A DNA stretch of 64,000 nucleotides. It comes from Acrocarpospora corrugata (GTDB taxonomy: Bacteria; Actinomycetota; Actinomycetes; Streptosporangiales; Streptosporangiaceae). The notes beneath the pieces were generated by a model. That model saw only the letters and a program-made list of their open reading frames with translations, had not been told where the DNA came from and did not search any database. The position numbers were made by a program, and so were the translations under genes. Every line of letters starts with the position of its first letter. The first letter of the stretch is position 1. Positions 6,789-23,337 of the stretch are shown one piece after another. Location of the stretch: contig NZ_BLAD01000076.1 in assembly GCF_009687845.1 (NCBI RefSeq), positions 1-64,000 on the forward strand, given 5' to 3'.

Positions 6789-6799
6789 CGGACCGTCGA

Positions 6800-7837
6800 T
6801 CAAACCGCGCCGAGCACGTCCACCACGAACACCAGCGTGTCGGTGCCCTTGATGCCGGCCTGCGCCTGGCCTTCCTTGCCGTAGCCCAGCTCCGGCGGGA
6901 TGGTGATCACGACGCGGCTGCCGACCGGGACGCCGGTCAGGCCCTGCGACCAGCCCTTGACGACCTGGTTGAGGGCGAACTGGGTGGCCTCGCCACGCTT
7001 CCAGCTGGAGTCGAACTCCTGGTCGGAGCCCCAGATCTTGCCGGTGTAGTGCACCATCACCGTCTGGGTCTCCTTCACCTTCGGGCCGTCGCCCTGGATG
7101 ACGGTCTTGACGACCAGGTCCTTCGGCGGCTGCTCGGTGGTCTTGGTGGTCAGCGTGGGGGCCGACTCGTCGCCCGGGTTGACCAGCTTGACGCCCGCGA
7201 TGCCCGGGTCCTTGGCGCTGCCCACGGCGGCCCTGGCGGCCGAGCCGACCATGTCGATGACCAGCACCTGCGAGGTCACCCCGAAGTCGGTGCCCTGCTG
7301 CTTGGCGTTGTCGATCATGGTCGGGTCCAGGCTGTCCTTGGCGATCACCACCAGCACCCGGCCGCCCGGCTTCAGGCCGACCAGACCGTCGTGCAGCACC
7401 TTCGGCAGGTTCTGGTTGACCGGCACGAACTCGGGCGTGCCCTTCTCGTACGCCGAGCCGACGACCTTGTTCTCCTTGCCGTCCCAGGTGTACACGCTGA
7501 CGTTGGCGACCAGGGTGTCACCGTCCTTGGCGGCGGTGCCGTCACCGGCGGCGATCACCCGCGCCGAGGAGTTCAGCGCCGGATTCCCGGCCGGGAAGGT
7601 GACCTTCGGCATGGTGCCGGCGGTCCCGTCGACCTTGATGTTCTTGGCGTCGCCGAGTGGCCCGGACAGCGTCGCGGCGGGCGCGGCCGAACTGGGCGCG
7701 GCCGCGGCGGTGCCGGTGCCTGCGGAGGTGGTGGCGGCGGGCGTGGCGCCGGTGGCGGTCTTCTGGGCGGTGCCGCACGCGACAGCGGTCAGAAGCAGAG
7801 GTAGAGCGGCGGCGGCGATGGCCGTGCGGCGGCGCAT
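6800..7837 (-). CDS. FKBP-type peptidyl-prolyl isomerase lipoprotein with two FKBP-like domains
   Basis: The 345-residue protein starts with MRRRTAIAAAALPLLLTAVAC, a signal peptide with an alanine-rich lipobox and Cys at about 21, then a long Ala/Thr/Ser linker. The C-terminal domain (about 235-345) is a recognisable FKBP: VMVHYTGKIWGSDQEFDSSW, GWSQGLTGVPVGSRVVITIPPELGYG and DTLVFVVDVL. An earlier region (about 90-205) has a degenerate copy of the same pattern (VGLKPGGRVLVVIAKD). It probably folds secreted proteins at the outer membrane face. ATG at 7837 has a GAGG site; the frame extends 17 codons upstream without support. An FKBP gene next to pafA is common in actinomycetes. Confidence 0.92.
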   Translation of the reverse strand: MRRRTAIAAAALPLLLTAVACGTAQKTATGATPAATTSAGTGTAAAAPSSAAPAATLSGPLGDAKNIKVDGTAGTMPKVTFPAGNPALNSSARVIAAGDGTAAKDGDTLVANVSVYTWDGKENKVVGSAYEKGTPEFVPVNQNLPKVLHDGLVGLKPGGRVLVVIAKDSLDPTMIDNAKQQGTDFGVTSQVLVIDMVGSAARAAVGSAKDPGIAGVKLVNPGDESAPTLTTKTTEQPPKDLVVKTVIQGDGPKVKETQTVMVHYTGKIWGSDQEFDSSWKRGEATQFALNQVVKGWSQGLTGVPVGSRVVITIPPELGYGKEGQAQAGIKGTDTLVFVVDVLGAV

Positions 7838-7924: not shown

Positions 7925-9283
7925 TCACATTCCCGCGATCAGCTTGTCCACCCGCTCGTCGACGCTGCGGAACGGGTCCTTGCACAGCACCGTGCGCTGC
8001 GCCTGATCGTTCAGCTTCAGGTGCACCCAGTCAACCGTGAAGTCACGGCGCTTCTCCTGCGCCCTGCGGATGAACTCGCCGCGCAGCCTGGCCCGGGTGG
8101 TCTGCGGCGGGACCGACTTGGCTTCGAAGATCTTGATGTCGGACGCCACCCGCTCCACCGCGCCGCGCTTCTGCAGCAGGTAGAACAGGCCCCGGCGGCG
8201 GTGCACGTCGTGGTAGGCCAGATCCAGCTGGGCGACCCTGGGCGAGGACAGCGGCAGGTCGTACTTCTTTCTGTAACGTTCAATCAGCTGGTATTTGGTG
8301 ACCCAGTCGATCTCCCGGGAGACCAGGTCCAGGTCGCCGGTCTCCACCGCGCGCAGGGTGCGCTCCCAGAGTTCCAGCACCCGCTTGCTGATCTCGTCGC
8401 CGCCGCGCCGGTCCACGAAGTCCTTGGCCTTGCCCAGGTACTCCTGCTGGATCTCCAGCGAGGACGCCTCCCGGCCGTTGGCCAGCCGGACCCTCCGGCG
8501 ACCGGTCATGTCATGCGAGACCTCGCGGATCGCCCGGATCGGGTTCTCCAGCGACAGATCGCGCATCACCACGCCGGCCTCGATCATGCGCAGCACCAGG
8601 TCGGTGGCGCCGACCTTGAGCAGCATGGTGGTCTCGCTCATGTTGGAGTCGCCGACGATGACGTGCAGGCGGCGGAACCGCTCGGCGTCGGCGTGCGGCT
8701 CGTCCCTGGTGTTGATGATCGGGCGGCTCCGGGTGGTCGCCGACGAAACGCCCTCCCAGATGTGCTCGGCCCGCTGCGAGACGCAGTAGACCGCTCCACG
8801 CGGCGTCTGCAGCACCTTGCCGGCGCCGCAGATGATCTGACGGGTGACCAGGTAGGGGATCAGCACGTCGGCCAGGCGGCCGAACTCGCCGTGCCGGCCG
8901 ACCAGATAGTTCTCGTGGCAGCCGTAGGAGTTCCCGGCCGAGTCGGTGTTGTTCTTGAACAGGTAGATGTCCCCGGCGATGCCTTCCTCGCGGAGCCGTT
9001 TCTCGGCGTCCACCAGAAGACCTTCCAGGATTCGCTCGCCCGCCTTGTCGTGGGTTACCAGCTCCACGACGTTGTCGCACTCGGGCGTGGCGTACTCGGG
9101 ATGGCTGCCCACGTCCAGATACAGGCGTGCGCCGTTGCGGAGGAAGACATTGCTCGATCGGCCCCAGGACACCACTCGCCGGAACAGGTAGCGCGCCACC
9201 TCGTCCGGTGACAGCCTGCGCTGCCCCCGGAATGTGCAGGTGACGCCGTACTCGTTCTCCAGCCCGAAGATGCGACGATCCAT
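7925..9283 (-). CDS. pafA: Pup-protein ligase PafA
   Basis: PafA attaches deamidated Pup to substrate lysines, marking them for the proteasome. The 452-residue protein matches the glutamine-synthetase-like fold of the family closely: [16 protein letters not shown] at the start, then [59 protein letters not shown] and [16 protein letters not shown] near the end. The GxENEYG and N-N-T-D motifs supply metal/ATP residues. ATG at 9283 follows an AGGG ribosome site with 7-bp spacing; a GTG one codon earlier is possible. It differs from Dop in this window by lacking the Dop loop insertion after residue 35. Identification is firm. Confidence 0.97.
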
Positions 9284-14587: not shown

Positions 14588-18760
<4,173 letters not shown>

Positions 18761-18807
18761 GCGAAGGCCCTCCCTCGGGGTCCGCGCCCCGGGTCGTCGA
18801 AAGTCAC

Positions 18808-18942
18808 GACGACGCGAGTGTCCTGGCTCCCGGATCGACGCTCCCCCCGGCCTTCCCTGTGACAGTGGCCATGGTGGGGGTCGCTCCCCGGTGACAGTGG
18901 CGGGACCGCGCCGGATTCACACCGGCTTCCTCGTACGCCGTC
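18808..18942 (-). promoter_or_regulatory. Cobalamin (B12) riboswitch upstream of cobN
   Basis: On the minus strand the order of conserved elements is correct: GGAAGCCGGTGTGAATCCGG (about 18912-18931), the GCGGTCCCGCCACTGT core (about 18893-18908), and a B12 box GAGCCAGGACACTC (18816-18829). A P1 helix of 8 pairs, including G-U, can form between 18935-18942 and 18808-18815. A second GCCACTGTCAC copy occurs in the variable arm. The 50 nt between aptamer and GTG carry CCCGGGG/CCCCGAG stretches near the ribosome site, suggesting translational control. Confidence 0.9.
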
Positions 18943-19054
18943 GCCAGGAGGAGCGTATGCCAACACCTCCTTCTTGGACAGTCAGCCCCAATCCACACCA
19001 ACCGGTCAAGCCCACAGTCGAGGGGACAGTCGTGTAGCCGGGGTGCGACGGCGA

Positions 19055-19320
19055 CCCGTCGTTCGGCTCCACCAGGGCCCTGGCGGGTCGGCGTACGGGC
19101 CAGACGGCGAGGTTCATGTCCGTGCCCGTCGTTCGGCTCCGTCAGAGCCCTGGTGCGTCGATGTACCGGTGACGGCGAAGTTCATGTCCGTGCCCCTCGC
19201 TCGCCTCCGACAGGGCCCCGGTGCGTCGGCGCACCGGTGACGGCGAGGTTCAGGCGGTGTCGTCGCTTGGCTCCACCAGCGCCTTGGTGCGAGGCGTGTC
19301 GACGCGACAACGGCGCGCTA
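19055..19320. repeat. Four imperfect tandem copies of a 66-70-bp unit upstream of cobG
   Basis: Copies begin near 19055, 19125, 19193 and 19259, with periods of 70, 68 and 66 bp. Each starts with a CGTCGTTCGGCTCC-like block, then CAGGGCCCTGGTGCGTCGG, then GGTGACGGCGAGGTTC. From about 19330 to 19500 follow shorter repeats (22-30 bp) built on AGCGGCACACGCCCGAG. No convincing gene fits; the stretch separates the cobN riboswitch from cobG. Confidence 0.8.
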
Positions 19321-19604: not shown

Positions 19605-20921
19605 GTGGATCCCATCCGTACGGGACCGGATGCCTGTCCCGGAACCCTGCAACTCCACCAGGCGGCCGACGGCCCGCTGGCCCGCGTACGCGTCCCCGGC
19701 GGCGAACTCCCCGTCGCCGCCCTCCGCGCCCTGGCCACAGACCTCGGCGACGGCTCGATCGAACTGACCTCCCGGGCGAACATCCAGGTACGCGCCCTCC
19801 GCGACCCCACCGCGTTCGCCACCCGGATCGCCGCCGCCGGACTGCTCCCCTCCCCCACGCACGAACGCGTCCGCAACATCCTCGCCTCCCCCCTGACCGG
19901 CCTCGGCCCCCACGGCACCCTCGACATCCGCCCTCTCCTCACCGCCCTGGACCACGGCCTCTGCGCCCACGCGCCCCTGGCAGCCCTCCCCGGCCGCTTC
20001 CTCTTCGCCCTCGACGACGGCACCGGCGACGTGGCCGCCCTCGGCGCCGACGTCACCGCACTCCCGGTCCCCGGCTCCATCGCGATCCTGCTCGCCGGCA
20101 TCGACCACGGCTTCCGCTGCTCCGCCGAGTCGGCCGTCCAGCTGATGCTGGCCGCCGCGGAGTGCTTCCTCGCCGAAAGAACCGCCCAGAACAGCCAGGC
20201 CTGGCGACTGGCCGAACTCCAGGACGGCCCGGCCCGGATAGCCGCGAGACTGGCCTCGAACCAAACTTCGGCACCGGAGGTCGACCCAAGCCCCGGCGAT
20301 AGAAACTCGCCTGAAACGGCTGGCCCGCCGCCCGTGGGGGTCGTATCGCTGCGTGATGGGACCTACGCGATCGGAGTGGCCGTTCCGCTGGGGCGGTTGT
20401 CGGCCGGGCAGGTGGAGGCGCTCGCTCGGGTGGCCGGACCCGGTGGGGTCGTGCGGTTGACGCCCTGGCGTGGGGTGGTCGTGGTCGGGTTGTCGGCGGA
20501 GGCTGTGGCCGCCGCCGAGGTCACGCTGGGGAACGCTGGGCTGGTCAGTGATCCTCGGTCGCCCTGGGTTGGGATCACGGCGTGTACGGGGCGGCCGGGT
20601 TGTGCGAAGTCGCTGACGGATGTGCGGGCGGATGCGCGAGCGTCGGTGGCGGGGGCCAGCGAGTTGAGGCCGGTGTCGTGGGCCGTCGGCCGGGTCGGAG
20701 CCGATCCGGATCGCCAGCCTGAGGGCCGAGTTGAGCAGGCCGGGGGGTCTAGGCCGGTGCATTGGGCGGGGTGTGAGCGGCGGTGCGGGCGGCCTCGGGG
20801 TGAGGTGGTGGATGTGGTGGCGGTTCCGGAGGGCTATCGGGTGGAGTTTGAGGGCGTTAGCCGTACATATCGGGAGTTGGATGCGGTGGTCGGGGATGTG
20901 CGGAGCAGGAGGCTTTGGTGA
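19605..20921 (+). CDS. cobG: Precorrin-3B synthase CobG
   Basis: CobG is the oxygen-using siroheme/4Fe-4S enzyme that makes precorrin-3B in the aerobic B12 route. The 438-residue protein has the duplicated nitrite/sulfite-reductase half-domains. The cluster cysteines are visible as CTGRPGC (C-x5-C) and GCERRCGRP (C-x3-C). GTG 19605 ([13 protein letters not shown]) has a GAAGGG site; an alternative GTG at 19557 lies 7 bp after a TACGAT hexamer and could be leaderless. A linker near 20260-20330 marks a change in codon use: C-ending codons before, G- and T-ending codons after. It is first in a five-gene operon. Confidence 0.93.
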
Positions 20922-21538
20922 GTTACGTCCGGGATGGGGCGGAGATCTATCGGCGGTCGTTCGCCGCTATTCGCGCGGAGGCGGAGTTGGGCGGGCTGCC
21001 GGAGGATGTGGCTCGGGTGGCGGTCCGGATGATCCATGCCTGCGGGATGGTGGATCTGGTTGGGGATCTGGCCTGGTCAGCTGGGGTGGTCGCGGCGGCG
21101 GGGGCAGCGTTGCGGGGTGGGGCGCCGGTGTTGTGTGACGCGCAGATGGTGGCGTCGGGGGTGACCAGGAAGCGGCTTCCCGCGGCGAATGACGTGGTCT
21201 GCACGCTGGGTGACGCGCGGGTGCCCAGGTTGGCGGAGCGGCTGGGGACGACCAGGAGCGCGGCGGCGCTGGAGTTGTGGCGAGAGCGGCTGGAAGGGTC
21301 TGTGGTCGCGATCGGGAACGCTCCGACCGCGCTGTTCCGGCTGCTGGAAATGATCGACGAGGGCGCCGGACGACCTGCGGCGGTTCTCGGGGTACCGGTG
21401 GGTTTCATCGGTGCGGCGGAATCGAAGGACGCGCTCGCCGCCCGCGACGACCTGGAGTTCCTGGTGGTACGGGGACGCAGGGGCGGCAGCGCCATGACTG
21501 CCGCCGCGATCAACGCGATCGCGAGCGACGAAGAATGA
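20918..21538 (+). CDS. cobH: Precorrin-8X methylmutase CobH
   Basis: CobH moves a methyl group from C11 to C12 of precorrin-8x to give hydrogenobyrinic acid. The 206-residue protein has the family pattern: [24 protein letters not shown] with the catalytic His, [18 protein letters not shown], and [16 protein letters not shown] 20918 overlaps the cobG stop (GTGA) and follows AGGAGG with 5-bp spacing; a TTG one codon earlier is less likely. Its stop overlaps the next ATG. It belongs to the G/T-ending codon block. Confidence 0.95.
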
Positions 21539-23337
21539 ACGAGGACGATGTGAAAGACGTGACCCTGCACGCCCAGGCCCCCGGGAGCCAGCCCGAGGAG
21601 ACAGCCGAGACGGGGCGGCTCCACAACACAGGGTTCGAGCCCGACAATCCGGAACCAACGATGGCCAACAGAGGCCACAACGCCGAGCTTGGATCCGACG
21701 ACCCAGAACCGGTGACAGCCAAGGTGGGGCCGCCCCATAACACAGGGTTTGACCCAGGCAATCCGGAACCAACGACGGCCAAAACTGGCCGCAGCGCGGG
21801 ACTTGGGGTCGGCAGCACGGAACCAGTGAGGGCTGAGGTGGGGCGGCTCTACGGGGTTGGGCTTGGGCCTGGGGATCCGGAATTGGTGACGGTGAAGGCC
21901 GCGCGGCTTATTGGGGCGGCGGGGGTGATTGCGTATCACAGTGCGCGGCATGGGCGGAGTATTGCGCGGTCAGTGGCAGCGCCTTATTTGCGTGGGGATC
22001 AGGTTGAGGAAGCGCTTGTCTATCCGGTGACGACGGAGACGACAGATCATCCGGGGGGTTATCAGGGGGCGCTTGACGATTTTTATGCGGCGTGTGCGGT
22101 CCGGCTGGCGGGGCATTTGGACGCGGGGCGGGATGTGGTCGTGTTGTGTGAGGGCGATCCGATGTTCTATGGGTCGTACATGCATTTGCACAAGCGGCTG
22201 GCGCATCGGTATGAGACCGAGGTCGTGCCGGGGGTGACGTCGGTTAGTGGGGCGGCTGCGGTGTTGGGACGGCCGTTGGTTGAGCGGAATGAGACATTGA
22301 CGGTTCTGCCGGGGACGCTGCCGGCGGAGGTGCTTGCGGGGCATATCGGGGCGGCTGATTCGGTGGCGGTTCTGAAGCTGGGGCGTACGTTCGAGAAGGT
22401 GCGGGACGCTTTCGCGGCGGCGGGGAAATTGGACGAAGCGTGGTATGTGGAGCGGGCCACGGCGGCGGGTGAAAGGATCGCGCCTTTGGCGGATGTGGAT
22501 CCGGCCTCGGTGCCCTATTTCTCGCTGGCGCTTTTGCCGAGTCCGGTGCATGAGGCGGCCGTTGTAGCGGAGAGAACGGTCTCGTCGCCGGGGACGGGTG
22601 CGGTGGCCGTGGTCGGGCTGGGGCCGGCCGGGCGGCCGTGGCTGACGCCGGAGGCGTGGGACGCGCTGATGTCGGCCGATGAATTGGTCGGGTATGGGCC
22701 TTATCTGGATCGGGTGCCGCCCAATCCGCGGCAGAAGCGGCATGCCACCGACAATCGTGTCGAGGCCGAGCGGGCGGCGCACGCGCTGGAGCTGGCGTTG
22801 TCGGGGTCGCGGGTGGCAGTAGTTTCGTCAGGTGATCCTGGGGTTTTCGCGATGGCGAGCGCGGTGCTGGAAGTGGCCTGTGAGGATCGGTTCGCGGAGG
22901 TTTCGGTCCGGGTGGTTCCGGGGCTGACGGCGGCGCATGCGGTGGCGGCTCGGGTGGGCGCGCCTCTTGGGCATGATTACTGTGTACTTTCGCTGTCGGA
23001 TCAGCTCAAGCCGTGGGATGTCGTGGCGGATCGGATAAGCGCGGCTGCTCGGGCGGATCTGGTGCTGGCCATCTACAATCCGGCCTCTCGTACCCGGACC
23101 TGGCAGGTAGCGGCGGCACGTGATCTGCTGCTGGAGCACCGAGCCCCCGAGACTCCGGTGATCATCGGCCGTTCGGTGGGGTCGCCCGGGGAGTCGGTTC
23201 GCGTGACCACGCTGGCCGAACTGGATCCCGCCGAGGTCGACATGCGCTGTCTGCTGATCATCGGTTCGTCGACCACCCGGGTCATGGCCCGTGAGCAGGG
23301 GAATGTCGTGTTCACGCCGCGCCGCTACCCGGCATGA
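21535..23337 (+). CDS. cobIJ: CobIJ: precorrin-2 C20-methyltransferase / precorrin-3B C17-methyltransferase fusion with N-terminal repeat
   Basis: Two SAM-dependent corrin methyltransferases are fused in one 600-residue protein, as is usual in actinobacteria. The CobI domain starts at about residue 103 with [18 protein letters not shown] and has [14 protein letters not shown]; the CobJ domain starts at about residue 352 with [16 protein letters not shown] and has [12 protein letters not shown] and [10 protein letters not shown]. Residues 27-102 are unusual: four decayed copies of the CobI opening motif precede the real one (see the repeat entry). ATG 21535 overlaps the cobH stop as ATGA. A start further inside the repeat would remove the oddity but has no ribosome site that I can see. 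Confidence 0.94.
21613..21840 (+). repeat. Four degenerate copies of the CobI N-terminal motif in tandem
   Basis: Four in-frame units of 60, 54, 60 and 54 bp precede the genuine unit at 21841. Their products contain [41 protein letters not shown] and [13 protein letters not shown], to compare with [14 protein letters not shown] in the enzyme. Units 1 and 3 resemble each other most, as do 2 and 4, so a 114-bp dimer was probably duplicated. Confidence 0.85.

Follow-up and report, generated by a model that had tools for sequence, protein, structure and literature searches.

We analysed the cobH-cobIJ junction of the soil actinobacterium Acrocarpospora corrugata in a 64-kb window, by which we mean the whole stretch of DNA under study; it comes from a draft assembly of 9.27 Mb in 170 contigs. 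The genes at the locus are ordered cobG-cobH-cobIJ, and their parts around the junction are listed in Table 1. CobIJ contains two tetrapyrrole methylase domains (Pfam PF00590 in two stretches, E 1.4e-80) and matches the PDB entries 3nut (CobJ) and 2qbu (CbiL) by sequence; Foldseek was run on the predicted model as well. Both domains and the N-terminal motif of the core, GVGLGPGDP (residues 107-115), are intact, which places the protein among the tetrapyrrole methylase fusions. With the actinobacterial CobIJ fusion (PF00590) it thus shares both methylase domains, the canonical core motif and the cobG-cobH-cobIJ order. It differs in a 102-residue N-terminal tail, whereas in two CbiL chains, 2qbu and 2e0k, hardly any residues precede the core motif (query residue 103 corresponds to residue 3 or 5 of the chain). 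In another CbiL chain, 8xj3, the alignment starts at residue 22. When 369 bases of the junction were searched in the assembly of A. corrugata itself (E <= 0.001), the sole match was the locus, and a mobile repeat with a second genomic copy can therefore be discarded.

Table 1. Features of the cobH-cobIJ junction of A. corrugata (positions in the window).
Feature	Position	Strand	Basis or remark
cobH (precorrin-8X methylmutase)	20915..21538	+	ORF; Pfam CbiC, E 1.3e-69; upstream of cobIJ and overlapping it
cobIJ (precorrin-2 C20- / precorrin-3B C17-methyltransferase fusion)	21535..23337	+	600 aa including the tail
ATGA overlap, start of the cobIJ frame on the cobH stop (4 nt)	21535..21538	+	Sequence; junction survey
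Tail leader, codons 1-26, ahead of unit 1	21535..21612	+	First part resembles MTEDGANDVTRP of sister species
GTG at +24 from ATGA	21559..21561	+	Candidate alternative start, likewise ahead of the array
114-bp dimer, copy 1	21597..21710	+	Repeat finding
Unit 1 (60 bp)	21613..21672	+	In-frame; base identity to core
Unit 2 (54 bp)	21673..21726	+	In-frame; base identity to core
114-bp dimer, copy 2	21711..21824	+	75% identical to copy 1
Unit 3 (60 bp)	21727..21786	+	49/60 bases identical to unit 1
Unit 4 (54 bp)	21787..21840	+	36/54 bases identical to unit 2
Possible internal start: GTG 21838 with GAGGG 21828-21832	21826..21840	+	Putative
Genuine first 20 codons of the CobI core	21841..21900	+	G107 to P115 invariant in 47 CobIJ proteins

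The original prediction of four in-frame units of 60, 54, 60 and 54 bp (21613-21840), followed directly by the genuine core, was borne out, and the units make up codons 27-102 of cobIJ. Tandem Repeats Finder (TRF) reports a period of 114 bp (21600-21806, score 281), and a second repeat search finds two copies of 114 nt with 75% identity. Because unit 3 resembles unit 1 and unit 4 resembles unit 2 (Table 1), the proposal that a 114-bp dimer was duplicated is also correct. The first and the third unit each agree with the core at 34 of 60 bases, a value that a single one of the 126,842 other 60-mers of the window reaches (both strands; mean 17.2, maximum 35). If one 6-nt gap is allowed, unit 2 matches the core at 32 and unit 4 at 30 of 54 bases, which is equalled or bettered by 2 and 12, respectively, of 42,282 null windows. 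A stringent local DNA alignment (+2/-3) of the A. corrugata tail to its own core is not significant (146/1000 shuffles as good), and the same alignment yields 0/1000 for A. pleiomorpha and 0/1000 for A. macrocephala. With +1/-1 scoring none of 400 shuffles is as good in each of these three species, and at the protein level the similarity between the A. corrugata tail and core is reached by 1 of 2000 shuffles. A lack of significant similarity between array and core, named in the original prediction as one outcome that would speak against it, is thus not what we see, since the identities of the units lie beyond the null of the window. Judged by these identities, the units arose as tandem copies of the SAM-loop codons and have since degenerated. 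The array has the properties of an intragenic tandem repeat, namely head-to-tail copies beyond chance, unit lengths that are multiples of three and an open frame. It does not have the near-perfect copies of a phase-variable (contingency) repeat, as the two copies of the dimer are 75% identical.

The array is present in three of the five Acrocarpospora species examined: A. corrugata, A. pleiomorpha and A. macrocephala. The tails in front of the core comprise 102 codons in A. corrugata, 96 in A. pleiomorpha, 67 in A. macrocephala, 16 in A. phusangensis and 4 in A. catenulata (306, 288, 201, 48 and 12 nt, every one a multiple of three). TRF describes the arrays of A. pleiomorpha (48 bp, 3.9 copies) and A. 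macrocephala (60 bp, 2.7 copies) as running into the core's own codons, and it reports no array with a score of at least 60 in the stretch from A. phusangensis. We built a midpoint-rooted tree of CobH and CobIJ from A. corrugata and 15 of 80 relatives; one of these 16 loci lacked cobH and was dropped, and 15 were included. In this tree A. catenulata is outermost, followed by A. phusangensis (85/88), while the three array species are grouped (87/86), with A. pleiomorpha and A. macrocephala as sisters (81/69). Seven of ten copies from the three species read EP where all five cores read EL, and the remaining three, all from A. pleiomorpha, are gapped there; these counts omit two truncated fragments, one of which reads EF and the other ES in the alignment. 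Seven of the ten copies are also nearer to the core of the array-less A. catenulata than to their own core. Since the tree groups the three array species and the copies share the change from L to P, one founding event in their common ancestor would be the simplest history. The moderate support for the key forks leaves room for an independent founding in some lineages.

Overlapping stop and start codons can couple the translation of neighbouring genes. ATGA or GTGA is found at 66 of 78 cobH-cobIJ junctions in a first actinobacterial set (78 of 81 loci, three without a recognised cobH end having been dropped), and 77 of the 78 are in phase. In a larger set of 142 loci, from which 9 without a recognised cobH end and 10 duplicates were removed, 112 of the 123 non-redundant junctions are in phase and 11 are out of phase, although many of the junctions are related and the counts therefore do not represent independent events. 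The cobH-cobIJ junction of locus L011 (genome G008) is a true intergenic gap, an out-of-frame spacer of 253 nt with stop codons and an apparent repeated stretch.

A start-like codon at +24, GTG or ATG, is shared by A. pleiomorpha, A. macrocephala and A. phusangensis. The first two of these species have no ATG, GTG or TTG in frame ahead of the core other than at +0 and +24; both positions precede the array, and no such codon lies within it or between it and the core. A later start would remove the invariant loop, and the array is therefore translated in these two species unless an unusual start codon is used. Thus the array very probably is an N-terminal extension of CobIJ, as had been proposed, and, as far as start codons tell, translation very probably runs through it. 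The opposite outcome, a start inside or after the array, is closed to standard codons in the two sisters but not in A. corrugata, whose tail has further in-frame start-like codons. These include GTG 21838 directly before the core (GRLYG), where A. pleiomorpha has AGC and A. macrocephala GTC. As this GTG is preceded by GAGGG, unlike in the array-bearing sisters, a shorter CobIJ isoform without the tail is possible in A. corrugata. Frame 0 is the sole forward frame that is free of stops in all three array tails; in the A. corrugata tail the three frames of the reverse strand are open too. The chance of an open frame 0, estimated by shuffling, is 0.17 for A. corrugata and 0.05 and 0.49 for the other two. 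Their product is 0.004, over three related and thus non-independent species, and the 0.17 on its own is weak evidence for A. corrugata.

The same GTG, with GAGGG upstream, is what would make it conceivable that the array lies outside the protein, as a minisatellite that is non-coding and separates cobH from a short form of cobIJ starting at 21838. A nearby 68-bp array (19055-19291), whose period is not a multiple of three, fits such an arrangement, as do the out-of-phase junctions, which mean that some relatives start downstream. We consider it improbable, however, because no standard start separates array and core in the two array sisters, with AGC or GTC in front of GRLYG, and because frame 0 is kept in five of five species and is the only stop-free forward frame in the three arrays. 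That the array is an assembly artefact of a repeat is hardly credible, even for a draft of 170 contigs: the paired units differ at 18% (unit 1 versus unit 3) and 33% (unit 2 versus unit 4) of their bases, and different yet homologous arrays occur at the same junction in three separate assemblies.

Two further alternatives concern what the tail might do. In the AlphaFold2 model, residues 1-99 of CobIJ have pLDDT values below 50 and no secondary structure, and the core opens with a strand at residues 105-109. The input was a 47-row alignment in which few rows cover the tail, and this accounts for part of the low pLDDT; going by the model, the 102-residue tail is probably disordered. The SAM loop GVGLGPGD, placed at residue 105 in the original prediction, actually begins at residue 107, and all nine positions from G107 to P115 are invariant in an alignment of 47 CobIJ sequences, for which 46 of 80 relatives were used. 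The statement that the copies have lost the glycines needed to bind SAM is accurate in that none has the full set of G107, G109, G111 and G113, yet units 1-4 still keep 1, 1, 2 and 3 of these residues. That the copies serve as additional or decoy loops for SAM, and in this way adjust the use of the cofactor, would suit the descent of every unit from the SAM-loop segment. Such a role is, nevertheless, most improbable, given that the four glycines are never found together in a unit, D114 is retained in unit 2 only, the remainder of the methyltransferase fold is missing and the units are predicted to be unstructured. With its incomplete glycines and with residues 1-99 devoid of secondary structure in the model, the array does not qualify as a set of SAM-binding sites, and we infer that the tail binds no SAM. 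The suggestion that the catalytic loop as such was multiplied is not supported. What was multiplied is a 5' coding segment, copies of which are predicted to be disordered, diverge far faster than the core and have the look of filler in a tail whose length varies freely. The tail could instead be a selected functional module, for example a docking or stability tail for the assembly of corrin enzymes, in which composition (P, D/E, T, G) counts more than order. The A. corrugata tail is indeed proline-rich and acidic (its most abundant residues are P, G, E and T), acidic residues (D+E) outnumber basic ones (K+R) in each of the three array tails (18 versus 7, 18 versus 10 and 10 versus 5), a tail is in frame in three of the five species, and 10 of 30 other in-frame actinobacterial CobIJ tails are internally repetitive (P <= 0.01) and similarly placed. 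Against this stand the two congeners with merely 4 or 16 codons and the gap of less than 20 nt at 60 of the 123 junctions. Moreover, the tails of A. pleiomorpha and A. macrocephala match at 31 of 62 aligned residues (about 50%) and differ in length by 29 codons, whereas their cores share 492 of 498 residues (98.8%), and the excess of synonymous changes between the dimer copies of A. corrugata, which would indicate purifying selection, is not significant (pS 0.37, pN 0.22, simulated P 0.097). A selected module thus appears unlikely, and the tail most likely has no sequence-specific role. RNA structure was also considered as the purpose of the array and rejected, since its fold is unremarkable (z-score -1.43, 9/100 shuffles as stable).

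To what extent the array is unusual depends on the CobIJ tails of other genomes. We tested 33 distinct in-frame tails with a gap of 29-400 nt, out-of-phase junctions being left out. Thirteen of them, including those of A. corrugata, A. pleiomorpha and A. macrocephala, are internally repetitive (P <= 0.01). Resemblance to the core, in contrast, is confined to the three Acrocarpospora tails (0/400 shuffles each), and the next best P is 0.058. The repetitive tails of Thermocatellispora (L045), Streptomyces (L073, L117) and Sphaerisporangium (L063) lie in the same place and in frame, but unlike those of Acrocarpospora they show no significant similarity to the first codons of the core. The view that a loop multiplying at an N terminus is unusual thus holds mainly for the source of the repeat, because repetitive tails occur at the cobH-cobIJ junction in other genomes. 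A search of 341 genomes of the family with the tail and core as query gave a match in 231. Among the matches listed, A. pleiomorpha (E 2.4e-15) and A. macrocephala (E 2.5e-12) are set off from the match that follows (2.5e-8), and no further core-like array stood out. Twenty stretches around further matches, in which 13 and 7 tails were inspected, contain no obvious core-like array, and none of the 7 tails, which were also scored, was significant. Locus L142 (genome G248), from another genus of the family and outside both the 33-tail test and the twenty stretches, has a long, repetitive, out-of-phase tail (GEPVQTGEPVETGDPM...) with repeats of the GEPV/GDPM type before the core; its similarity to the core is borderline (17/300 shuffles as good). 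The tail of Herbidospora mongoliensis (L057), MMTGTLNTGSLDKGTLYG, resembles a small duplication of the TGTL start of its congeners (P 0.058, not significant alone). As judged by these comparisons, the copying of the enzyme's own catalytic codons is clearly found in Acrocarpospora only, among the tails examined.

Other tandem arrays lie close to the junction. On the minus strand, cobN contains a 33/66-bp array (18127-18299), which forms an insert rich in E, A, R and S around residues 154-211, and a 36-bp array (16065-16148) with the repeated sequence EPVGGPRSGPTS; both periods are multiples of three. The 68-bp array mentioned above, with 3.5 copies, lies close to where cobG starts. The longest ORF of cobG reaches into the final part of this array, and the true start of cobG is probably further down. 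A cobalamin riboswitch (Rfam RF00174, 83.1 bits) at 18796-18974 on the minus strand is placed to control cobN. Between 16065 and 21806 there are four arrays (period at least 24, score at least 100) within 6 kb, whereas 420 kb sampled from this genome have about 2.6 per 100 kb. The density of tandem arrays is 2.6, 3.0 and 2.8 per 100 kb in three Acrocarpospora species, a comparison within the genus only, based on 420, 400 and 360 kb of contig starts with short contigs omitted. The cob cluster of A. macrocephala (L122) has a 36-bp array at about 8652-8805, which to judge by its position alone probably falls midway along cobG, and an almost perfect 66-bp array at 6795-6997 (3.1 copies, 99% matches).

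Among known systems, the array can be compared to the coding satellites, or intragenic tandem repeats, of prokaryotes. In the part of that account available (PMC6749651), they resemble the CobIJ array in having head-to-tail copies with an in-gene unit length that is a multiple of three, a copy number that varies between relatives and a repetitive protein segment as the product. In contrast to them, the CobIJ array takes its unit from the catalytic core immediately downstream; its last unit alone is functional, and its copies, instead of being near-perfect, are old and have diverged. The 4-nt overlap of the cobH stop and the cobIJ start is shared with the ATGA termination-reinitiation pairs treated in the accessible parts of PMC6728339 and PMC10666635, from which the locus departs in that the insertions in cobIJ sit just behind the overlapping start; the coupling here would follow by analogy. 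In other organisms, strict coupling was seen in 13 of 14 pairs tested (PMC6728339). Coupling is reported to be almost lost once the gap reaches about 20 nt (PMC10666635). A literature search covering few subscription papers yielded neither an account of this array nor one of N-terminal growth from copied core codons behind an overlapping start.

We therefore favour, with a probability of roughly 0.77, the reading that the array is an intragenic tandem repeat by which a disordered and tolerated tail at the N terminus has grown longer, downstream of a start that is pinned to the cobH stop; filtering would act mainly on the frame. A segment containing the first ~20 CobI codons would have been copied head-to-tail just behind the cobIJ start, most simply once, in the ancestor of the three Acrocarpospora species. 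The copies would later have been lengthened, shortened and re-duplicated species by species, with the 60+54-bp dimer doubling in A. corrugata. Throughout, the cobIJ start would have stayed pinned to the cobH stop (ATGA), so that ribosomes ending cobH can plausibly restart there, which suggests translational coupling of the two genes. An insert ahead of the start would break this junction, whereas one behind it would only lengthen the protein, provided that the frame is kept; the overlapping start may thus shelter the growth of the tail. The outcome would be a 102-residue tail in front of an unchanged enzyme, serving at most as a flexible spacer. The array is most likely ordinary in kind and unusual in two respects: its unit comes from the cofactor-loop segment of the enzyme itself, and five congeners display a growth series.

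More tentatively, a start locked to an upstream stop might shelter the stretch that follows it, and tandem duplication might repeatedly copy an enzyme's own catalytic codons into a growing disordered tail. It is possible, though doubtful on present evidence, that this constitutes a general route of N-terminal extension in bacteria, of which Acrocarpospora CobIJ would be a living growth series (4, 16, 67, 96 and 102 codons). For annotators there is a caution, as N-terminal segments that look like a motif can be decayed self-copies. The findings also suggest that an insert of 100 residues directly before the SAM-binding strand can be tolerated with very little change in the core (A. pleiomorpha and A. 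macrocephala differ there at 6 of 498 residues). Finally, the five species form a series of lengthening N termini in a single enzyme of the cobalamin pathway, in which the source codons, the likely founder change and the later expansions can still be read.
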